Of a DNA stretch of 52,550 nucleotides, positions 2,777 through 20,070 are shown in pieces. This DNA comes from Candidatus Zhuqueibacterota bacterium. Its GTDB lineage: Bacteria > Zhuqueibacterota > Zhuqueibacteria > Oceanimicrobiales > Oceanimicrobiaceae. A program made the position numbers and the translations under genes. The stretch is from contig JAJDAD010000088.1 of assembly GCA_029262055.1 (NCBI GenBank), forward strand, positions 1-52,550, read 5' to 3'. Positions within the stretch are counted from its first letter, which is position 1. Each line of letters starts with the position of its first letter. The notes under the pieces were generated by a model, which did not search any database, was not told the origin of the DNA, and saw nothing but the letters and a program-made list of their open reading frames with translations.

Positions 2777-4096
2777 TCAATTCTGTTCGGCGATGGACCC
2801 AACGGCTTTTCGCAGATCCGCAAGGTAAACCTGGTACTGAATTCGCGCCTGCTCTACCTGCAGTTCAGCGCGCGTGAGATCGATTTCGGCCGTGGTCAAA
2901 TCGTTTGTTGAGACAACTCCGCTTTCATGTTGTGAGACAACTATGCGGTAACGTTCCCGCTCCTGCTGCGCCAGCCGCTCAGCCAGGCCGAGTTGTTTAC
3001 GACTGAACAACAGGTTTTCGCGCGCCTCTGACACTTCAAACTCGATGCGATTGATTTGCTCTTGTTCTTCCAGAGTCAATTGCCGTCTGCGGACGATGGT
3101 TTGCTCAACTCTTTTCTGGTCACCGCCCCAGCGCCAGAGATTCCACTCCAGCCCGACGCCGGCGGAAAAATAATTCATCCATTCGTCCCGCACCGGATCC
3201 AAACCGGGTTTGGCATAGTGCCAACTGCCCTGGGCATAAACAGCGGGGAAATAAGCGGCGCGGGCCAGCTTCTTCTGCAGATCAGCGGTTTGTTGCACCA
3301 GCCGTACCTGGTGCAACTCGGGTCGCTTTGCAAGGGCGCGCTCATGCAGAACATCCAGGCCCTCAACCTCTTCCGTGGTAGTGGCGACGGCAATGGCGGC
3401 AAGCTCCGGTCGTTCCGGCAAGTTGAGCAGCCGCGCAAGTTGTAAGGCTACCAGCCGTTGTCTGCGCCGCAGATCCTCGCGTTCGATTTCAACCGCGAGC
3501 GCCTGGTTGTGCACCTGCAACGTATCGAACGCCATGACTTGTGCGGCATCGAACAGATTTCTGACATTGCGCATGACGACATGCAGCCGGTCCAGGCTGG
3601 CGTCGAGAATTTTCTCCTGGCTGGTCAACTTCCGGCTGGTATAAAAAAGGATGCAAACGCCGTGGATCACCTCGTTGGTCAGAACCTCCTGCCTGGTCTC
3701 CTGTTCCAGGGTCGCGAGCCTGGCCAAATCCTCTTTGGAGGTGAGCGCGAAACCGGTGAAAAGCGGCTGCCGCACGCCCAGAGCAAACTCCGAACGGTCG
3801 TGGCCGCCGAGGCGCACCCGGGCATTGGGGATGCCGGTCGCCCTGCGTAGATCGATCTGATTCACCTTTGACACATAACTGGTGGAAAACGCAAAATCCA
3901 GGGAAGGTAAACGAGCCGTTCGGTGGACTTCCTCCTCAAGTTCAGCGTAGGCTCTGCTCTCGGCCTGCATCAGGAGCACAAGGTTCTTTTGTCGCACCAG
4001 TTGCAGCGCTTCCTGCAGATCGAGAACTTCCCCGCCTGCCGCGGAATCAAAGCCCACCAAAAGGACGGCGATAATCACGTTTGTGCAGCGCTTCAT
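2777..4096 (-). CDS. TolC-family outer-membrane efflux protein
   Basis: A 439-residue outer-membrane channel protein. It has a cleavable signal peptide (MKRCTNVIIAVLLVGFDSAAGG) and then the two repeated outer-membrane-efflux-protein halves. These are mostly alpha-helical and heptad-rich, with the typical ALQLVRQKN opening and the ALAKRPEL motif starting the second half (about 250). The C-terminal half has the AELQVEQARIQYQVYLADL helix seen in the family. Only two bases separate it from the TetR gene upstream, so it is the second cistron of the exporter operon. It should form the exit duct for the HlyD-ABC pump. Confidence 0.9.
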   Translation of the reverse strand: MKRCTNVIIAVLLVGFDSAAGGEVLDLQEALQLVRQKNLVLLMQAESRAYAELEEEVHRTARLPSLDFAFSTSYVSKVNQIDLRRATGIPNARVRLGGHDRSEFALGVRQPLFTGFALTSKEDLARLATLEQETRQEVLTNEVIHGVCILFYTSRKLTSQEKILDASLDRLHVVMRNVRNLFDAAQVMAFDTLQVHNQALAVEIEREDLRRRQRLVALQLARLLNLPERPELAAIAVATTTEEVEGLDVLHERALAKRPELHQVRLVQQTADLQKKLARAAYFPAVYAQGSWHYAKPGLDPVRDEWMNYFSAGVGLEWNLWRWGGDQKRVEQTIVRRRQLTLEEQEQINRIEFEVSEARENLLFSRKQLGLAERLAQQERERYRIVVSQHESGVVSTNDLTTAEIDLTRAELQVEQARIQYQVYLADLRKAVGSIAEQN

Positions 4097-4098
4097 GT

Positions 4099-4716
4099 TT
4101 ACTCGCTCCTCAGTTTATCCCGGCTTTCATCGGTGAGCAGCCCCTCGAGCAGCAGGGTAAAAATCGCCTGGAATGCATCGTGTGAAGTGAAAGGAAGCTG
4201 GGCCAACGTTTCAGGGTTGATGATTCTTTGAATGGCACTGAAATAGACGAGCACCACCAGGTCCTGGCTGACATCATTTCGAAACGCGCCGGAACGCATG
4301 CCCTCGTCGATCAGGCGCGCAAAGCGGGTGTGAATCATTTCTTTGCGAAAAAACTCAATTCGTTCCCAGACCTCGGGGGCCGTGCGTTGCAAATCCCGCA
4401 GGAACGACTTCTGCAAAAACTTCGAAACCTGCATCCCCATGAAAGTGAGGACGGTCTGCAGCTTTGCCGTAAACTCCAAATTGCAGTCGGCAAGGATTTC
4501 TTCGAAACCATTTTTGAGACTGTCCAACGTGGTCTCAACTGCGGCATGCAGCAGGGCGATTTTGTTTGGGTAAAATTTATACAGCGTCTTCTTGCTCATC
4601 CCCAACTCGTACGCCAGCTCATCCATGGTCACTTTGGAAAACCCGCTGGAGAAGAAACGCTCGGCCGCAATTTTCACGATGCGGTCACCGGTGCTCATTT
4701 CTGTCAAAATATTCAT
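4099..4716 (-). CDS. TetR/AcrR-family transcriptional regulator of the exporter operon
   Basis: This 205-residue repressor has the N-terminal helix-turn-helix of the TetR family (about 12-58: AAERFFSSGFSKVTMDELA, then GMSKKTLYKFYPNK). The helical ligand-binding C-terminal half has no recognised ligand motif. It is the first gene of the operon, as in the E. coli cecR(ybiH)-ybhGFSR arrangement. It is probably autoregulated: an 8-bp inverted repeat and a sigma-70 promoter lie directly upstream, with the operator touching the ATG. Binding of a drug-like ligand would relieve repression, which is inferred from the family. Confidence 0.9.
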   Translation of the reverse strand: MNILTEMSTGDRIVKIAAERFFSSGFSKVTMDELAYELGMSKKTLYKFYPNKIALLHAAVETTLDSLKNGFEEILADCNLEFTAKLQTVLTFMGMQVSKFLQKSFLRDLQRTAPEVWERIEFFRKEMIHTRFARLIDEGMRSGAFRNDVSQDLVVLVYFSAIQRIINPETLAQLPFTSHDAFQAIFTLLLEGLLTDESRDKLRSE

Positions 4717-4745
4717 GGAAACTATTATCGTTTTCTAAGTTTCCA
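4716..4745. promoter_or_regulatory. Probable TetR operator (inverted repeat)
   Basis: The arms TGGAAACT (4716-4723) and AGTTTCCA (4738-4745) are a perfect 8-bp inverted repeat with a 14-bp spacer that holds a third similar half (GTTTTC). It spans the expected transcription start and reaches the -10 box of the promoter at 4745-4773, a typical position for TetR-family autorepression. Confidence 0.6.
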
Positions 4746-4773
4746 ATCTATGAAATGATTCCGCCGATGTCAA
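4745..4773 (-). promoter_or_regulatory. Sigma-70 promoter of the TetR-exporter operon
   Basis: On the minus strand a perfect -35 TTGACA (4773-4768) is followed after exactly 17 bp by TAGATT (4750-4745) as the -10. This places the transcript start near 4738, about 20 bases before the TetR start codon. Confidence 0.65.
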
Positions 4774-4866
4774 GGTGTTTTAAGACACAAAGCACATTGC
4801 TTTCGGCAACCCTGTCGGCGTTCGCACACAGGGAATATAATCCTATGGGGGGAAATCAGGAGCAGG

Positions 4867-6597
4867 TCAGCGGTTGCGCTGGTTGCGGAAGAAAGTTTCT
4901 ATTTCGGCCAGGGACAATGCGTTTAGGATATTCTCTCGCTGCAGCCAGCCTTTGCGCGCAATGCCGACGCCGTAGCGCATGTCGGACAATCCGTCGACGC
5001 TGTGCGAATCCGGGTTGATGCTGATGAGGACACCCTGGTCCCTGGCGTACTTGCAGTAGCGCCAGTCGATATCGAAGCGATAAGGGCTGGCATTTAGTTC
5101 AATGGACACGGAGTGCTCAGCGGCCGTATCGATTATCCGATGCATGTCGAGAGGCAGCCCCTCACGACCGAGAAGCAGCCTGCCGGTCGGATGTCCGAGA
5201 ATGCTGACATAGGGATTCTTAATGGCGCGCACGACTCGCGCGGTGGCGTCCTCCGCCGACATTCCCAAGTTGCTGTGCACGGACGCTACTACAAAATCAA
5301 AGGTGGCGAGCACCTCATCGGCATAATCGAGGGTACCGTCATTCATGATATCGCACTCAGTGCCCTTGAGAATCTTAAAGTCCGAGTACTGTTGATTCAG
5401 ATCGTCGATGAGCGCGTGTTGCTCCACGACGCGTTCCGGTTCCAGGCCGCGCGCATAAACGACCACCTGGCTGTGGTCGCAGATTCCGAAGTACTGGTGG
5501 TCCTTGGCGCGCACAGCATTGGCCATCTCCTCCAGCGTGTTGGCGCCATCACTAAAGGTTGAGTGGCAATGCAGTATGCCTTTGATGTCTTTCTCCGCGA
5601 CCAACTCCGGGAGCCCGTCGCCGGCAGCCGCCTCAAACTCGCCGTTATCCTCGCGCAGCTCGGGCGGGATGTAGGCCAGGCCCAGGGCCTCGAAAATGTC
5701 GGCTTCGGAGTCACACGGGATAAGCTCATCCTCATTTTTGAACAGGCCGTGCTCGCTCACTTTCATGTCCTTCTTTTTTGCCAGGCCGCGCATCGCCGTG
5801 TTGTGCTCTGCGGAGCCAGTCAGATGGTGCAGGATGTAGGGGAATTTTTCATCGGGCAGCACGCGCAGGTCAGCGCTGATGCCTTGCTGTAACACGACAG
5901 TCGACTTGGACTCTCCGCTGCCGACAACGTCCGCCACATCGGGTAGAGAAACAAAGAACTGCATGATTTCCCCGATGTCCTGCGGCTCAGCGCTTGCGAC
6001 GATGTCGACGTCTTTGATGGTCTCCTTCTTCCGGCGCAGGCTGCCGGTGAGTTCGGCGCGAATCACATTCGGATGACTTTGAATGGCCGCCAACAACGGC
6101 TGTGCTGCCGCCTCCGCCCGATGGAAGAGGTGCCTGCCGCTGTGCTGCTTCAGAAATGTGATGCCCTGCAGTATTTTCTCCTGCGTCTTCTTCCCGAATC
6201 CCTCCAGGTCCGAAAGGCGGTTCTCGCGGCAGGCATACTCAAGCTCTGCGACATTTTGAATGCCCAATGCGGTATAGACCTTGTTGACTTTCTTCGGGCC
6301 AAAACCGGGAATGCGTGTCATTTCGACCAGACCCGCCGGCACAGAGGCCTTGAGTTCGTCATAGTAGTCCAGCTTGCCGGTTGTCACCAGTTTGGTGATC
6401 TTGTCCTGCAACGCAGCGCCGATACCTTTGATGTTCTTGATCTCGCCCGATGCCACCAGTTCTTTCGGCTCCTTGCTCTGGGCCAGCATGGTACGGGCAC
6501 CCATCATATAAGCCCGGCTCTTGAACGGGTTTTCACCCTTGATCTCGAGCAGGGTACCGATTTCATCGAGAATCTTGCTGAGTTGTTTCTTTTCCAT
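4867..6597 (-). CDS. polX: DNA polymerase/3'-5' exonuclease PolX
   Basis: A family-X repair polymerase with a PHP nuclease domain, 576 residues (family about 570). The N-terminal HhH/8-kDa region (1-150) includes KGIGAALQDK and PGFGPKKV. The palm has GSLRR (185-189), the DVD metal ligands (D197, D199) and a third carboxylate in ADLRV (D243). The PHP domain (about 338-576) keeps HCH (343-345), DH (374-375), E414, H441, H469 and the closing NPDSH (528-532). All metal ligands appear intact, so both gap-filling and nuclease activities are expected. It is monocistronic between the exporter operon and a long intergenic region. Confidence 0.93.
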   Translation of the reverse strand: MEKKQLSKILDEIGTLLEIKGENPFKSRAYMMGARTMLAQSKEPKELVASGEIKNIKGIGAALQDKITKLVTTGKLDYYDELKASVPAGLVEMTRIPGFGPKKVNKVYTALGIQNVAELEYACRENRLSDLEGFGKKTQEKILQGITFLKQHSGRHLFHRAEAAAQPLLAAIQSHPNVIRAELTGSLRRKKETIKDVDIVASAEPQDIGEIMQFFVSLPDVADVVGSGESKSTVVLQQGISADLRVLPDEKFPYILHHLTGSAEHNTAMRGLAKKKDMKVSEHGLFKNEDELIPCDSEADIFEALGLAYIPPELREDNGEFEAAAGDGLPELVAEKDIKGILHCHSTFSDGANTLEEMANAVRAKDHQYFGICDHSQVVVYARGLEPERVVEQHALIDDLNQQYSDFKILKGTECDIMNDGTLDYADEVLATFDFVVASVHSNLGMSAEDATARVVRAIKNPYVSILGHPTGRLLLGREGLPLDMHRIIDTAAEHSVSIELNASPYRFDIDWRYCKYARDQGVLISINPDSHSVDGLSDMRYGVGIARKGWLQRENILNALSLAEIETFFRNQRNR

Positions 6598-12504: not shown

Positions 12505-13890
12505 GTGAGTCCGAAAGCTCCACGGCATTCGATTTTGGTTGTCGATGATGACAAAAACATTCTCAAGATGATTGAGATAAATCTAAGGAAAGAACGAACC
12601 TACGACATTCGGACCGCATCAAATGGTGAAGCCTGTTTGAAGGTCATTGGCGATGCAATGCCGGACCTGGTCCTGATGGACATTCAGATGCCGGGGATCG
12701 ATGGCATAGAGACGCTCAAGCGCATCAAAGAACGCGAGCCGCTTATCCCCGTGGTCATGATGTCGGCGCATGGTACAATTGAAAAGGCCGTGGAATCGAT
12801 GAAGCTCGGCGCTTACGATTTCATCAGCAAGCCATTTGCCAGCGATCGTCTGCTCGTAACCGTGAACAACGCTCTGATGAATTCCACTCTCAAGCGGGAA
12901 GTGGACGAACTCAGGCGCGAACTGAAAGACAAGTATCGGTTCAGAAACATCATTGGCCAAAGCGGTGTGATGCAAGAAGTCTTCGGTTCGATTGAAAAGG
13001 TGATCAACAGCAATGTGACGGTGTTGATTCAGGGTGAAAGCGGGACCGGCAAAGAACTGATAGCCAAGGCCATCCACTACCATAATAAGAAGCGCGGCAA
13101 TTATCCCTTTGTTGCGGTGAACTGCAGCGCCTTACCCGAGTCACTGCTGGAGAGCGAACTGTTCGGGCACGAAAAGGGCTCCTTCACCGGCGCAACGGGC
13201 CGCCGTATCGGCAAGTTCGAGATGGCCAATAACGGGACTATCTTTCTGGATGAAATCGGCGACATGACACCCGCGATGCAGGCAAAGGCTCTGCGGGTGC
13301 TGCAGGAAAGGGAGTTCGAACGCGTTGGCGGCAACGAACTGGTAAAGGTCGATACCCGTATTATCTCAGCCACCAACAAAAACCTGGAAGACGGCGTCAA
13401 GAACGATACATTCCGGGAAGATCTTTATTACCGCATATCGGTCTTCCCCATAAAGATGCCGCCCTTGCGCGACCGCAAGGAGGACATCCCATTGCTCGCC
13501 GCCCATTTTCTCACGAAGTATGCGAAGCAAGAGGAAAAGGATGAACTCGAACAGTTGTCGCCCGAGGCATTGGATCTTTTGATGGCGTATCACTGGCCCG
13601 GCAACGTCAGGGAACTGGAGAACGCGATTGAAAGAGCCGTGGTATTGGCAACTCCTCCCGAGATTGGCGCTAAGGATCTACCCGCTAACATACGTTCGCT
13701 CGGCGAGAAGAAAATCTATGAGTCCGACAACAAACTCTCAAGCTGGATAGAGCGCCTGGAAGAAGACGCACTGCGCCAGGCACTCCTTGAATGCGAGGGC
13801 AATATCTCCCAAACAGCCAAAAAGCTCGGTATCGGCCGGGCTACTATTTACCGCAAAGCAAAGAAGTACGGCCTCCCCATGTTAAAATAG
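12505..13890 (+). CDS. NtrC-family sigma-54-dependent response regulator
   Basis: A transcription activator of 461 residues. The receiver domain (8-125) has an intact phosphorylation site: acidic pair at 14-16, Asp59 (LVLMD), S87 and Lys109. The AAA+ domain (about 148-385) has Walker A GESGTGKE (177-184), the sigma-54-contacting loop GSFTGA (225-230), Walker B IFLDE and the arginine finger region. A Fis-type helix-turn-helix ends it (about 420-456, ISQTAKKLGIGRATIYRKAKK). The start is GTG 12505 with GGAGAG 5 bases ahead. No histidine kinase is adjacent, so it is an orphan. It is the only gene in this island with a canonical receiver. Confidence 0.93.
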   Translation: MSPKAPRHSILVVDDDKNILKMIEINLRKERTYDIRTASNGEACLKVIGDAMPDLVLMDIQMPGIDGIETLKRIKEREPLIPVVMMSAHGTIEKAVESMKLGAYDFISKPFASDRLLVTVNNALMNSTLKREVDELRRELKDKYRFRNIIGQSGVMQEVFGSIEKVINSNVTVLIQGESGTGKELIAKAIHYHNKKRGNYPFVAVNCSALPESLLESELFGHEKGSFTGATGRRIGKFEMANNGTIFLDEIGDMTPAMQAKALRVLQEREFERVGGNELVKVDTRIISATNKNLEDGVKNDTFREDLYYRISVFPIKMPPLRDRKEDIPLLAAHFLTKYAKQEEKDELEQLSPEALDLLMAYHWPGNVRELENAIERAVVLATPPEIGAKDLPANIRSLGEKKIYESDNKLSSWIERLEEDALRQALLECEGNISQTAKKLGIGRATIYRKAKKYGLPMLK

Positions 13891-14155: not shown

Positions 14156-15319
14156 ATGGAAACAGTCGTAAAAAGCGGTACTCTCCCGCAACTCGTCAAC
14201 AAGATATGTTATGGCACCTACAAAGAACCTGAGTTAACCGAATTCGTCAACCTGGTTCAGAAGATCTCTCTGAGCTATCTGAAGTACCAGGAAGTCATCG
14301 GTAAACACATACGCTGGGAACGTAACAAGAACATGGGCGAGCTGGATGACCTGGCGCTTGATTGTGTCGCCGGCCTCTTCATGAGAAATGAGAACGGCGA
14401 GTTCATCCAGTTTAGAAAGTACTTCCTTGGCGGACCGGCGGATATTGACTCGCTTGACGATGCAGAGATCCTTGTCCTCATGCGCAGACTCGTGATCAAG
14501 AAGACCAAGCAGGAACTCTCCAGAATATTCAAAGAGCGCGACCCTGAGGGAGCGAAGATTGTGCGCAACATTAAGGTTGCGATCAAAAGTTCGGAAGAAT
14601 TCAGCTCATTCAGAGAAATGGGCCGGGAGTATATCTACACGACCAACGGCAGAGAAAACGGGTTCCGGCTTGAGTTGCCAAACCTGAACGGCAATGGTCA
14701 CGACCGGCCTGCCCGTAACGGACAGGCAAGAGACAGCGAATCCAAGAACGGTGCCCTGCCGAAATATCTCAGAAGAGCGCAACCCGCAATTCCTGAAAGG
14801 TCTCTCAGAGGTGAGTACCTGAGCATGTATTGCCCCAAAGATCCGGTGTCAGCCGGTCTGCGCAAAATGCTCTGCGTGGTCAAAGAAGACCCAAGATATC
14901 AGAACTTCCTGCCTCTGGACATGGTCGCCAGAATCATGCGCAATACCAATCTGGAGATGGTGCGCGACAGGCTAAGCGCACAAGTGTCGGATGTATCACC
15001 GATAGACGCACTAAAACTGAAAGAAATAGAAAAACGCAAACTCGAAGTCCTGGAGCGAATCCAGAACAAGATTCAAAGCCAGTATGTTGATACCGACAAG
15101 ATCTCGCCCGAAAAGGGTAAGATCTACTACCTGACTCTGGCCGAGATTCTCGACGACATTAGCCAGGGCAAGAAATACGACTCTTATTATAAACACCTGA
15201 GACGCTTCATGCCCAATTTAAGTCAAAGGGCATACCGGGCTCAGGAACGAACAATTTTTGAATACCTGGGTAAGTTGATCAAGAAGTGGTTTCGAGAGTC
15301 GCTGATGGAGCTTTTGTAA
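14156..15319 (+). CDS. Unassigned regulatory protein, possible sigma-region-2-like N-terminal half
   Basis: A 387-residue soluble, helical, basic protein that I cannot assign. Residues 25-90 have a sigma-region-2-like pattern: a long helix (FVNLVQKISLSYLKYQEVIG), then MGELDDLALDCVAGLF and a following aromatic segment (FIQFRKYF). A low-complexity N/G/R linker (175-200) leads to a second helical half (205-387) ending in FEYLGKLIKKWFRESLMELL. A strong ribosome site (GGGGATAAGG) precedes the ATG. The next gene encodes an anti-sigma-like zinc-finger protein, which supports but does not prove a sigma-like role. A different DNA-binding or partner-binding function is equally open. Confidence 0.6.
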   Translation: METVVKSGTLPQLVNKICYGTYKEPELTEFVNLVQKISLSYLKYQEVIGKHIRWERNKNMGELDDLALDCVAGLFMRNENGEFIQFRKYFLGGPADIDSLDDAEILVLMRRLVIKKTKQELSRIFKERDPEGAKIVRNIKVAIKSSEEFSSFREMGREYIYTTNGRENGFRLELPNLNGNGHDRPARNGQARDSESKNGALPKYLRRAQPAIPERSLRGEYLSMYCPKDPVSAGLRKMLCVVKEDPRYQNFLPLDMVARIMRNTNLEMVRDRLSAQVSDVSPIDALKLKEIEKRKLEVLERIQNKIQSQYVDTDKISPEKGKIYYLTLAEILDDISQGKKYDSYYKHLRRFMPNLSQRAYRAQERTIFEYLGKLIKKWFRESLMELL

Positions 15320-15811: not shown

Positions 15812-15840
15812 TTGACATGAGAACCGATTTTGACTATATT
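15812..15840 (+). promoter_or_regulatory. Strong sigma-70 promoter of the DUF4388 regulator operon
   Basis: Perfect TTGACA (15812-15817), a 17-bp spacer, then TATATT (15835-15840), about 90 bases before the ATG at 15930. This is among the best promoter matches in the window. Confidence 0.75.
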
Positions 15841-15929: not shown

Positions 15930-18296
15930 ATGGATAAGCCCAGAATCGTAGTCGTCGATGGGGATCCCAAAAACCTGCAGATTCTTCGTGAAAGTCTCGA
16001 ATCCGCTGATTTCGAGGTCACGACTTCAGGCAATGGTGAAGACGCCTGGACGATGATACAGACACGAAGGCCTGATATTATTGTTTCCGAGGTAGACATT
16101 CCCGGTATTGATGGATTTCAATTACTACAGAGACTGCAGGGAGACCCCGGAAGTTCAGCCATCCCGATGGTTTTCCTGACCAACCGGCGCAACCTCCAGG
16201 ATCGCATCAAAAGCCTGCGTACGGGTGTCAAAGACTACATGATCAAACCGCTGCATGTCAAAGAAGTGATTGCCCGGCTGCAGATGATTTTACGCAGACT
16301 GGAGTCGCTGCAAAACGACGACTCAGGCAACAATCGTAAAATCGTGGGCAGACTGGAAGATAGCAGTGTTGAAAAGCTTGTGGAAAGCTACGGGGCAGAG
16401 CAAAAGACCGGCGTTCTCTCCCTCTACGACCATCAAAATCGCAATGGTGAGATTTATTTCCGGAACGGTTCAGTGGTTAACGCTCGCCTGGATAGCTTTA
16501 GAGCAGAGAAAGCCGTCTATCAAATGCTGCCCTGGGATAACGGGCATTTCATAATGACGCTGAAAGACGTCAATGTTGAAGACGAGATTACGGTCAGCAA
16601 TCTCGGATTGCTTCTGCAAGGATTCAAGCGCTCACAAGAGCAGGAAAAACTTCTGGCCAAGCTGCCCTCCACCGATACGATATTGGTCAGGACCAGGCTC
16701 TTCGACCAGATTTTAAAGCGAAAAGCCGTCGGCACCGATGCGCTGCAATTCATCGCTCTTTTCGATGGCTATAAGCCGCTCGACGCCATCCTTACAGAGA
16801 GCAATTTTGATGAACTTAAAACACTGCAACGCGTTACCCGCCTCTACCAACAAGGTTTTATCGCACCGGTCGAAGATGAGCCCCAGGACACGCCCTTGCA
16901 TGATACAGAACAGACCCAAGCGCCGGATACTGCTCTAGAGCCCGGCCTCGATATGCCGGACATGGATACAAAGTGGAGCTATGAACCTCTGCATGCAGCC
17001 CCCCGGGACACCGAGCTGACGCAGCGTCCTGAAGATAGCAGCGACCAGGCGCCAGCTCCGGAGAGCAGCACCGAAGCCATGCAAGCCGACCCGGTTACGC
17101 CTGAGAGCGAGGAACGCACGGAAGACATCGCCAGCCCGGATGAGCCTTCCGAAAACATGAGTCGCCCGGTTTTTGAAGCCGAAGAAGCTGACGCTGAGGA
17201 CCTGATATTCGACGACACACAAGAAGACACGAGCACCCCCAAAGAAACCCGGACTTCCGAAGTGGGTGTCCAAAGCAGTGACGAGGATGCCAGCCACGAT
17301 GACGCGCCACTTTTCGAAATATCTGATGACATAGAGCTGGAACAACCGTTCGACCTTGAGACTGAAGAAATCGACTTGTCCGATCTGGAGGTCGAAAGCT
17401 CCACCCCGGAACCACTGCCCCTCGATACACCGGAGACGGAGGACGCAACGGCGGAACGCGAAAACGAAGAAGACACGGTATCCCCGTTGCCCGGCGGCAT
17501 TTTTGAAGAAACGCCATCTCACCAGCCGGTCCCGGACAAATACTTCAACGGGGTAGACAGCAGCGAGCCGGCGGAGCCCGAGTTTATCACGGAAGAGCCG
17601 GTCAGCGCGGACACGACGCCGGTCAGCCAGACGGAGCCGACGTTGAATGGCAATAAGGGTGAAGAATATTCTACCAACGGCAGCCACCAGGAAGTCGAAG
17701 CTACGCCTGTGGCAGAACCGAATCCGCTGTCTGCGGCCAGCATCAAACTGTGCCAGGCTCGCGGATTGAAAAAAGGGCAACTCGTCGTGCTCAGCAGCAA
17801 TCGGGAAGCACAGGAAAAATTGGTGGCGGCATTGACGGCAGATCAATTCTCGACCAGACAAATCGACAGCAGTAGCTCATTGCTCCTGGGTAAAATGGCG
17901 ACCGGCAATGATTATACAGTCGAAGTAGTCGGCCTGTCCACCGAAAAAAAGTTCCTGCAACTGCTGCATCAAGTCTCCGACAAAATGATAGGATGCATCA
18001 TACTCGTCGTTGGAGATAGCTCCACCGGCCTTGGGTATCTGGGATATTTGCTTAATTCGCTGAAGGGCACTCTCAAGGCACCGTCAGTAGTCGCGGTCTA
18101 CCAGCCTGAAGGTGAGAGAAGAGTTCCGTTGGAGTTCATCCGCTACTCGCTAAAGATGGATGAAGGCGAGCAAATTATGGAAATACATCTGACTGAACCT
18201 GATTCTCTGCAGCACATGCTTGCCCAACTGCAAGCTCCTGCATACAGCTCGACACACCTGGAAGATGTGTCCGGCGAAACCGGTGGGGACCAATAG
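15930..18296 (+). CDS. Multidomain regulator: atypical receiver, DUF4388, winged-helix-like, disordered linker, G-domain-like
   Basis: A 788-residue cytoplasmic signalling protein. Residues 4-122 are a receiver domain whose phospho-acceptor position is Glu54 (IIVSEVDIPG) instead of Asp; T84 and K106 are kept, and the acidic pair is DG. Residues 138-235 are a DUF4388 (PATAN-like) domain. Residues 255-312 form a small winged-helix-like unit (LFDGYKPLDAILTES, then LYQQGFI). Residues 315-600 are a long acidic, Pro/Ser/Thr-rich, probably disordered linker. Residues 603-765 look like a degenerate small-GTPase fold (SSNREAQEKL where the P-loop would be, CIILVVGDSS, then SVVAVYQPEG). Phosphorylation control appears lost. 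Its adaptor role is inferred. Confidence 0.8.
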   Translation: MDKPRIVVVDGDPKNLQILRESLESADFEVTTSGNGEDAWTMIQTRRPDIIVSEVDIPGIDGFQLLQRLQGDPGSSAIPMVFLTNRRNLQDRIKSLRTGVKDYMIKPLHVKEVIARLQMILRRLESLQNDDSGNNRKIVGRLEDSSVEKLVESYGAEQKTGVLSLYDHQNRNGEIYFRNGSVVNARLDSFRAEKAVYQMLPWDNGHFIMTLKDVNVEDEITVSNLGLLLQGFKRSQEQEKLLAKLPSTDTILVRTRLFDQILKRKAVGTDALQFIALFDGYKPLDAILTESNFDELKTLQRVTRLYQQGFIAPVEDEPQDTPLHDTEQTQAPDTALEPGLDMPDMDTKWSYEPLHAAPRDTELTQRPEDSSDQAPAPESSTEAMQADPVTPESEERTEDIASPDEPSENMSRPVFEAEEADAEDLIFDDTQEDTSTPKETRTSEVGVQSSDEDASHDDAPLFEISDDIELEQPFDLETEEIDLSDLEVESSTPEPLPLDTPETEDATAERENEEDTVSPLPGGIFEETPSHQPVPDKYFNGVDSSEPAEPEFITEEPVSADTTPVSQTEPTLNGNKGEEYSTNGSHQEVEATPVAEPNPLSAASIKLCQARGLKKGQLVVLSSNREAQEKLVAALTADQFSTRQIDSSSSLLLGKMATGNDYTVEVVGLSTEKKFLQLLHQVSDKMIGCIILVVGDSSTGLGYLGYLLNSLKGTLKAPSVVAVYQPEGERRVPLEFIRYSLKMDEGEQIMEIHLTEPDSLQHMLAQLQAPAYSSTHLEDVSGETGGDQ

Positions 18297-18302
18297 TTCG
18301 AT

Positions 18303-19517
18303 ATGGAACGAAAACGAATTCTACTTGCCGTCAATAACATAACCGAAATTGAGAAGCTAAGAAAGATCCTGATCAGTTCCGGCTACGAAGTGCAATGCGC
18401 AAGTGACGGTATCTCTGCTCTGCAATCGAGCCGGGAGTTTCGGCCGCACTTGATTCTGGCTGAGTTAGATCTGGCAAAAATTGATGCCCACCATTTTCTG
18501 CAGGAAATAAAATCCCGGGCAGCAACCAGAGCCATTCGTTTCGTCATCATGAGCAAGCACCGTTCTGTAAGCGAACGGGTCCACAGCATCAAGCTGGGTG
18601 TCGATGAATATCTTACTGTTCCTTTCGATATCAGAGAAGTCCTGGTCAGGTTCGAGATCATCCTCAACGAAGTCGGCAATGTAGAACCTGCCGCCGGCAA
18701 ACAGGCGAAAGGCTTTTCCGGTAAGCTCATCGACATGAATGCGGTAGAGTTGCTGCAAACCCTCGACATTTCCAAGAAGTCAGGGTCGTTGCGACTGTTT
18801 CATGGAGAGGAAGAAGGTCTTATTCTGATGCAACGTGGCGAAATTGTCGAAGCCAGCCTAGGCGATTTGTCCGCCCGCGAAGCACTTCTGCGCATGATTA
18901 CCTGGGAAGACGGCACATTTGAGTTTGATATCCATGAAATCAATCGACCCAGCAAATTCAAAGATTCGACCTCTAATATCATAAAAATGGGACTTCTCTA
19001 CCGGGATCGGTGGGACAGAGTGCGCAGCAGCCTGCCGCCCTTGCAAACCCGGTTTGAACGGTCTGAAGAAGACAAACCCGCGCCGGATTCGCTCTCTGCC
19101 GAAGAAACGCAAGTCCTGAGTTCCATCAATGGCAACTCGCGCATCGGCAACATCGTCAGAGAATCGAACCTGGACGATTTAAAGACGCTGGCAATCTTGT
19201 CCAGACTTTTCCACCAGGGCCGCTTGAAAGAACTGCCTCTGGAACAACAGGACTCCTCTGGCAATGGCGGCGCAAATGGGCACTCTGCCGTACGTTCGAT
19301 AGAAATTGCAGACCTCATTCAAAAATTCCTGCACCCGGACAACGGCACACCTGCAAAGCCCAGCCGTTTGAAGCTCGATCGGCGCAACAAGAAAGAACGG
19401 CGTAATCAGTTACGGCGTTCATCAGACCACCGGCAGGAAGAAAATCAGGTCTTTTTGGGAAGAAGCGAACTCCTTATTATCCGGCAGAAATTGGCCACCT
19501 GGACCAGTGATGCCTAG
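18303..19517 (+). CDS. Second DUF4388 regulator with a pseudo-receiver domain
   Basis: The 404-residue protein is a short paralogue of the preceding one, starting 6 bases after its stop. The receiver fold (4-122) has lost every catalytic position: NN11-12 replaces the acidic pair, Glu54 (LILAELD) the acceptor Asp, and Val106 the lysine; Ser84 remains. DUF4388 spans 138-235 (LLQTLDISKKSGSLRL, then LILMQRGEIVEA). The winged-helix-like unit follows (265-312: VLSSINGNSRIGNIVRES). A basic tail (355-380, Arg/Lys-rich) may bind nucleic acid or membrane. It cannot be a phosphorelay switch, so it probably works by protein contact with its operon partners. Confidence 0.8.
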   Translation: MERKRILLAVNNITEIEKLRKILISSGYEVQCASDGISALQSSREFRPHLILAELDLAKIDAHHFLQEIKSRAATRAIRFVIMSKHRSVSERVHSIKLGVDEYLTVPFDIREVLVRFEIILNEVGNVEPAAGKQAKGFSGKLIDMNAVELLQTLDISKKSGSLRLFHGEEEGLILMQRGEIVEASLGDLSAREALLRMITWEDGTFEFDIHEINRPSKFKDSTSNIIKMGLLYRDRWDRVRSSLPPLQTRFERSEEDKPAPDSLSAEETQVLSSINGNSRIGNIVRESNLDDLKTLAILSRLFHQGRLKELPLEQQDSSGNGGANGHSAVRSIEIADLIQKFLHPDNGTPAKPSRLKLDRRNKKERRNQLRRSSDHRQEENQVFLGRSELLIIRQKLATWTSDA

Positions 19518-20070
19518 CGCACCTGGCCCTGATCCAACACTCTCCGAAAAACAACATGAAAACAGCGCCACTTCACCTGAACCTGACACCATGAGGGTCG
19601 CTGAAGTCGCAGTGGTTGGCCCCAATGGGCAGACAAAGCACGAGTTCATCCGAACTGCCTGCGGCGCGGAGCCGGTTCAAACCGGAGATTTGACCTACGG
19701 CTGCTTACAAATAAATGAACAACTGGCTGTCCACCTCTACGGCCTGAAGAAAATTGAAGAAAAGAATCCCTCGTGGGAGTTGATTGCCAAGAAGCTGCTA
19801 GGTTATATCGTTTTGTTCGATTGGGATGACGTCCCTGCCATCGAAGTCGTCAAGAGCACAGTAGATGCAATCTCACTCCGGCATCGCATTCCGATAATCA
19901 TCGCTGCAAATGTGAAGCACCCACCGACTTCAATCCCAGTTCAACTGGCAGCGGAGAAATTTGATCTCGCTGAACAAAGCAAGCTGACTTTTTGCAATGT
20001 GTCAGATGAGCACAGTTCAAGAAATATCCTCGTTACTTTGATCGATTGTGTCCTTTATGCGTTAAAGTAA
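19510..20070 (+). CDS. Degenerate small-GTPase-like protein
   Basis: The protein has 186 residues, with the ATG at 19510 overlapping the end of the preceding gene by 8 bases (a GTG sits one codon earlier). After a disordered N-terminus (1-28) a Rossmann-like alternation follows: RVAEVAVVGPNGQTKHEF, in which the P-loop GxxxxGK is broken. LLGYIVLFDWDD comes next, then PIIIAANVKHPP where an NKxD motif would be, and LTFCNVSDEHSSRN in the SAK-like position. It resembles the small predicted GTPases (MglA/COG2229-like) but lacks intact nucleotide motifs. Overlap with the regulator gene indicates they are made together. The same fold seems to end the 788-residue protein. Confidence 0.6.
   Translation: MPSAPGPDPTLSEKQHENSATSPEPDTMRVAEVAVVGPNGQTKHEFIRTACGAEPVQTGDLTYGCLQINEQLAVHLYGLKKIEEKNPSWELIAKKLLGYIVLFDWDDVPAIEVVKSTVDAISLRHRIPIIIAANVKHPPTSIPVQLAAEKFDLAEQSKLTFCNVSDEHSSRNILVTLIDCVLYALK

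Follow-up and report, generated by a model that had tools for sequence, protein, structure and literature searches.

Organization of the locus

The analysed window, a stretch of 52,550 nucleotides from a Candidatus Zhuqueibacterota bacterium (contig JAJDAD010000088.1), harbours three genes, here called A, B and C, which form an operon that is kept across much of the phylum. The following features were assigned, all of them on the plus strand:

12505..13890: sigma-54 activator with a canonical receiver (Asp kept), an upstream neighbour kept in many genomes of the class
14156..15319: protein U, conserved, 387 aa, between the sigma-54 activator and A
15812..15840: sigma-70-like promoter match TTGACA-17-TATATT, about 90 bp upstream of A, a consensus match only
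15930..18296: ORF A, 788 aa, class-wide Glu54 pseudo-receiver protein, comprising the Glu54 pseudo-receiver (residues 1-120), a DUF4388/PATAN-type domain (about 136-243), a winged-helix-like unit (about 250-315), an acidic linker (about 325-556) and a Ras-like pseudo-GTPase domain (about 590-781)
16089..16091: codon 54 of A, GAG (Glu), the phospho-acceptor position
16905..17596: low-complexity acidic linker of A, 31% D+E and 4% K+R, not present in the orthologues of sister lineages
17703..18284: C-terminal Ras-like domain of A without a P-loop (SSNREAQEK where GxxxxGK[ST] is expected)
18303..19517: ORF B, 404 aa, degenerate receiver (V10, N11, E54, S84, V106), DUF4388 and winged-helix-like unit
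18462..18464: codon 54 of B, GAG (Glu)
19507..20070: ORF C, 187 aa, Ras-fold pseudo-GTPase without G1, G3 and G4 motifs, its start overlapping the end of B

Pfam detected a receiver (Response_reg, PF00072) and a DUF4388 domain (PF14332) in A (80.7 bits, 1.1e-22 and 49.2 bits, 6.8e-13) as well as in B (46.4 bits, 5.2e-12 and 57.2 bits, 2.1e-15), the curated cut-offs being 30.2 and 25 bits, respectively. DUF4388 is taken by us to be equivalent to the PATAN domain. The succession of DUF4388 and a winged-helix-like unit, which had been proposed in a sequence-only reading of this DNA, was supported for DUF4388 by the Pfam matches in both proteins and for the winged-helix-like unit by the predicted structure of A, in which helices at residues 256-264, 269-275, 284-290 and 295-307 make up the latter. 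This reading had overlooked ORF C and the Ras-like domain of A.

The receiver pockets of A and B

According to the sequence-only reading, both receivers carry a Glu at the same residue number, 54, where a phosphorylatable Asp is expected. Both codons are indeed GAG, and the alignment puts the two residues opposite the Asp that is phosphorylated in CheY and opposite its counterpart in the neighbouring sigma-54 activator. The modelled strands beta-3, beta-4 and beta-5 of A terminate at residues 53, 84 and 105, respectively, which places E54, T84 and K106 in the canonical pocket positions. The modelled receiver matched those of PhoB (BeF3-PhoB), VicR and RstA at about 1 A (Foldseek). The aligned pocket residues of A are D10, G11, E54, T84, Y103 and K106, as had been read before for the DG pair, Thr84 and Lys106. 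In B, the pocket consists of V10, N11, E54, S84, Y103 and V106; here the earlier reading had Val106 right, but the reported NN pair (N11, N12) was read one residue late. Neither protein possesses the full phospho-pocket, i.e. the Asp, two metal-binding acids, Thr/Ser and Lys. Both show the receiver fold without the phospho-Asp and hence belong to the Asp-less receivers (pseudo-receivers); for A, this holds in 53 of the 55 proteins of the class. Asp56 and Asp61, which had been named as possible acceptors, were rejected on the basis of alignment, model and variability: Asp56 occurs in only seven of the 55 proteins, and position 61 lies in the usual PGxDG loop (41/55).

Apart from A and B, the receiver of the sigma-54 activator was the only one found in the window. 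It had already been recognized as the sole canonical receiver nearby, and all 23 homologues whose receiver is intact retain the Asp.

Position 54 in the evolution of A and B

The conservation analysis covered 13 families of the window's class with a total of 55 A proteins (median pairwise identity 41%, 328 columns). At position 54, Glu was found in 52 proteins, Asp in two and Ala in one, which shows that E54, whose fixation in the clade was to be checked, is fixed there and rules out that this residue arose by chance or local decay. Other pocket columns revealed K106 in 55/55, D10 in 54/55, T or S at 84 in 53/55 (Ala in two members of family f3) and Y or F at 103 in 51/55 of the proteins. By entropy, column 54 was the 23rd most conserved of the 328 columns; column 11 was among the most variable ones (rank 289). 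Glu54 is encoded by GAA (35 codons) and GAG (16 codons). Asp is only one third-base change away, and both Glu codons are used; that Asp is nevertheless so rare suggests that selection maintains Glu54.

A different picture emerged from six A proteins of four families outside the class (L215-L220; f14-f17). All of these sister proteins possess Asp54 and Lys106, and five contain the acidic pair DD, one of the five with Ser instead of Thr, so that the full DD-D-T/S-K set is present in five of the six. The possibility that homologues mostly carry Asp at this position, which would have spoken against a Glu receiver, thus applies outside the class (6/6) but not inside it. On the tree, the six sister proteins were separated from the 55 class proteins by a branch with an SH-aLRT value of 100, and within the class Asp was later regained once and Ala acquired once; with B as outgroup, sister A and B each formed one group. 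As the sister lineages have a complete canonical pocket, Asp is probably the ancestral state, and the sequences indicate that a phosphorylatable receiver of A became Glu-locked along a single branch. The only genus in which A has regained Asp54 is g35 (L070, L071), where the second acid is still missing; it may be regarded as a natural intermediate. From this reversion it can be inferred that Glu54 is not indispensable. On one sister contig (L215, positions 2838-5177, genome G060), a continuous frame of 779 residues covers both A and B and contains a truncated Ras-like domain, which could reflect a fusion, a deletion or an assembly error.

Treating A and B alike was not justified, as B is far more variable. 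Among 62 B homologues, Glu54 was found in about 40, Asp in nine and other residues in the remainder, these values being approximate since a few divergent rows were poorly aligned and three rows were wrong ORFs. Within the window's family, position 106 of B holds V, L, T or I instead of Lys. The B proteins of the sister lineages already lack Asp54, and B is thus an older and looser pseudo-receiver.

Ras-like domains of A and C

The predicted structure of C shows a Ras-like alpha/beta fold (pLDDT 90.4) matching structures of the Ras family (RhebL1 at 1.6e-8, also Rap2A and Rab11; Foldseek). A profile of C reached Rab3 sequences at 5e-4 and also an intact bacterial GTPase of the same type in a relative (L191; GPFGSGKT, GTPGQ, NKQD), which is encoded beside proteins that were assigned as Roadblock-like by reading their sequences. 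None of the motifs P-loop, GTPGQ/DxxG and NKxD was detected in C and its aligned homologues. Homology to C was also found for the C-terminal part of A, about 190 residues in length (hhalign 98.9%, E 1.2e-17). Here, the G3 and G4 motifs are replaced, and no nucleotide motif was seen in the A protein of the window. By the measures applied to small GTPases, C itself and, by homology, the C-terminus of A have the Ras-like fold and lack the P-loop GxxxxGK[ST] and G3/G4. Since both the C-terminal domain of A and the separate protein C are Ras-like and devoid of nucleotide motifs, the unit is, judging from these sequences, wider than the pair of receivers.

At the homologous site, a strict P-loop was found neither in C nor in any aligned A protein of the window's class. 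The sister A proteins contain GTSESGKS, GTASSGKS, GTVGSGKS, GTANSGKG, GVSASGKN and GSARSGRS at this site, i.e. GxxxxG[KR] in all six and a strict GK[ST] in three. Families f2 and f3 of the window's class mostly possess GxxxxGR-type remnants, which could still weakly bind nucleotide, and the remaining families of the class have unrelated sequence there. Even the sister Ras-like domains are without clear G3 and G4 motifs, so that this domain of A was perhaps at no time a normal GTPase. The segment that links the winged helix to the Ras-like domain is absent from the sister proteins, comprises 3-33 residues in f2 and f3 and 14-420 mostly acid-rich residues in the other families; in the A protein of the window it has a length of about 231 residues with 31% D+E. 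It was in one and the same lineage that the phospho-site was lost, the P-loop decayed and the acidic linker grew. As this is essentially one evolutionary event, the coupling of switch and P-loop is a correlation and not a proof. Elsewhere, the source genome encodes an intact MglA-like protein (L233), and in genome G017 (L234, positions 3734-4318) an intact MglA/Rup-like GTPase gene is located beside genes that were judged by eye to code for several Roadblock-like proteins and one globin-like protein.

Gene neighbourhood and distribution

In the first 48 loci, several of which end at contig edges, A and B were adjacent in 47 and A-B-C in 44 cases. The upstream region contained protein U in 32 of these loci and the sigma-54 activator in 26. 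A search of the phylum yielded a match at 1e-30, mostly to a full-length A, in 74 of 82 genomes. Outside the group, the best among the matches listed, from a scan with one short pattern, was a REC-DUF4388 protein of a Deltaproteobacterium with 26% identity. Protein U is very strongly conserved, the sequence TKQELSRIFxERDPEGAKI being nearly invariant, and gave no notable match in Pfam, NCBIfam or PDB; inspected by eye, it bears a faint likeness to a sigma-factor-like helical protein. In sister lineages (L216, L218, L219), A-B-C lies in a housekeeping neighbourhood without the sigma-54 activator and U. By eye, the upstream neighbours there resemble hisS and genes for an rRNA methyltransferase and a SpoIID-like protein, and the downstream neighbours (L216, L219) resemble tig-clpP-clpX-lon.

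Other REC-DUF4388 proteins also exist in these bacteria. A canonical, Asp-bearing paralogue is encoded in the source genome beside a histidine kinase and an NtrC-type regulator (L082), and a further family of the phylum (L193-L207, L229-L232) consists of short proteins of about 245 aa whose receivers are degenerate at almost every pocket position. The type IV pilus motor, an idea taken from the cyanobacterial PATAN proteins, was considered as output and found unsupported because PilT does not track the operon: it is present in genomes without A (e.g. G007, G044, G068) and was not detected, at the threshold used, in three near-complete f2 genomes carrying A-B-C.

Mechanism and alternative explanations

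We propose that A-B-C constitutes a signalling scaffold which lost both classical switches during evolution. The receiver of A would descend from a normal phospho-receiver in which, on the branch leading to the class, Glu took the place of Asp54 and the second of the metal-binding acids disappeared. With both of these gone, phosphotransfer to this receiver is very unlikely. The earlier suggestion that the assembly no longer uses phosphate is in this respect supported for A, given the Asp54 pocket of the sister lineages versus the Glu54 pocket of the class. Glu54 might be retained through presumed contacts with the invariant Lys106, and with Thr84 and Asp10, and may lock the receiver in a single conformation, probably an active-like one, in which DUF4388 is offered to binding partners. 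Since A lost its P-loop and C is without G motifs, their Ras-like domains would be binding folds instead of GTPases. B could act as a second, more degenerate pseudo-receiver, probably paired with A, and the signal would then stem from protein-protein binding or from the expression level instead of phosphate or GTP. Taken as a whole, a scaffold of A, B and C that is independent of phosphate and nucleotide and has A in an active-like state is, in our view, reasonably probable.

The active-like state itself is given no more than moderate weight. In Asp-less receivers, Glu is the commonest replacement (26%; PMC4395418) and a possible mimic of the phosphorylated Asp (PMC12632262, PMC4395418), and the retention of T84, Y103 and K106 in A is suggestive of such a role. 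However, a change from Asp to Glu often fails to activate receivers, and activity does not always stem from the Glu: ChxR keeps its constitutive DNA binding after replacement of this residue by Asp or Ala (PMC4395418). The assumption of constant phosphorylation mimicry, originally made for both receivers, is accordingly plausible for A and suits A better than B; for B it appears weak since the receiver in the window lacks Lys106 and both acids, and only some two thirds of the homologues, the approximate 40 of 62 given above, have Glu.

The same ChxR result would fit Glu54 being a structural leftover in a folded, inactive dimerization module, where it packs with Lys106 and no active-like state exists. 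A simple salt bridge would explain the invariant K106 beside E54, Thr84 is replaced by Ala in two f3 proteins, and B, with the same domain layout, accommodates many residues at position 54. On the other hand, the Tyr and Thr switch residues of A are kept in 51/55 and 53/55 of the proteins, beyond the need of a bare scaffold, and Asp would also bridge to Lys106, yet it is avoided. We regard this explanation as rather unlikely, though it is the one to be taken most seriously besides the active-like scaffold. The strongly conserved D10, E54 and K106 leave an acidic pocket that might still be regulated by another modification or ligand, e.g. methylation of Glu, which has been listed as a possibility for such receivers (PMC4395418), a metal or a small molecule. 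The operon shows no association with a modifying enzyme, though, and the free variation of the second acid argues against metal binding, making regulation of this kind improbable. Still less probable is phosphorylation of A on another residue or on Glu54 itself: Asp10, Thr84 and Lys106 are retained and D61 is nearby in many members, but Asp56 is rare, position 61 is an ordinary loop residue and the second metal ligand is lost.

A more far-reaching view can be put forward only tentatively, being somewhat more doubtful than not. A phosphate- and nucleotide-gated hub would have been converted on one lineage into a permanently 'on' double pseudo-enzyme, and strong selection would then have preserved it throughout the class at the centre of an assembly that needs neither phosphate nor GTP and also includes a second pseudo-receiver and a pseudo-GTPase.

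Comparison with known systems and significance

Pseudo-receivers, pseudo-GTPases, clade-wide Glu receivers and PATAN proteins near MglA are already known. With RitR, ChxR and FrzS, A shares the receiver fold without a phospho-Asp, and exactly like A, pseudo-receivers usually keep the first acid and the Lys and lose the second acid (PMC4395418, PMC12632262). What separates A from these three proteins is a Glu fixed class-wide with sister orthologues possessing a full phospho-pocket, and the junction to DUF4388 and a Ras-like domain that has lost its P-loop as well. A clade-wide Glu at the Asp position also occurs in the receivers of ascomycete Rim15, which has canonical relatives elsewhere, and of plant PRR proteins (PMC12632262); these are, however, eukaryotic, with other output domains and no linked pseudo-GTPase. 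The cyanobacterial PATAN regulators PixE, PixG and LsiR resemble A in joining a receiver to a PatA-like/DUF4388-type domain and in their proposed mode of action, the binding of other proteins such as PilB1 in the case of PixE (PMC7690835). A differs from them by its winged-helix unit, acidic linker and Ras-like domain, and a pilus partner is unsupported. Finally, C and the C-terminus of A correspond in fold and sequence profile to the MglA/Rup small GTPases, which are associated with Roadblock proteins and response regulators (PMC4316618), and PATAN proteins are sometimes encoded near MglA of Groups 1 and 5 (PMC4316618). By contrast, C and the A proteins of the window's class have no G1, G3 and G4, and the A-B-C operon contains no Roadblock protein. 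A class-wide double loss in a receiver and its attached Ras-like domain, with intact sister orthologues, was not found in the open-access literature subset searched; this coupled conversion is the new part of the present findings.

The mechanisms by which bacterial pseudo-receivers are activated 'remain a mystery' (PMC12632262). Here, one conserved operon offers a natural series of A orthologues: Asp is present in the sister lineages, Glu in the class and Ala in one member, and one genus has recovered Asp but not the metal ligand. The idea of Glu as a permanent phosphate can hence be tested directly by swaps between natural orthologues. At the same time, A-B-C provides a linked case of bacterial pseudo-GTPases.
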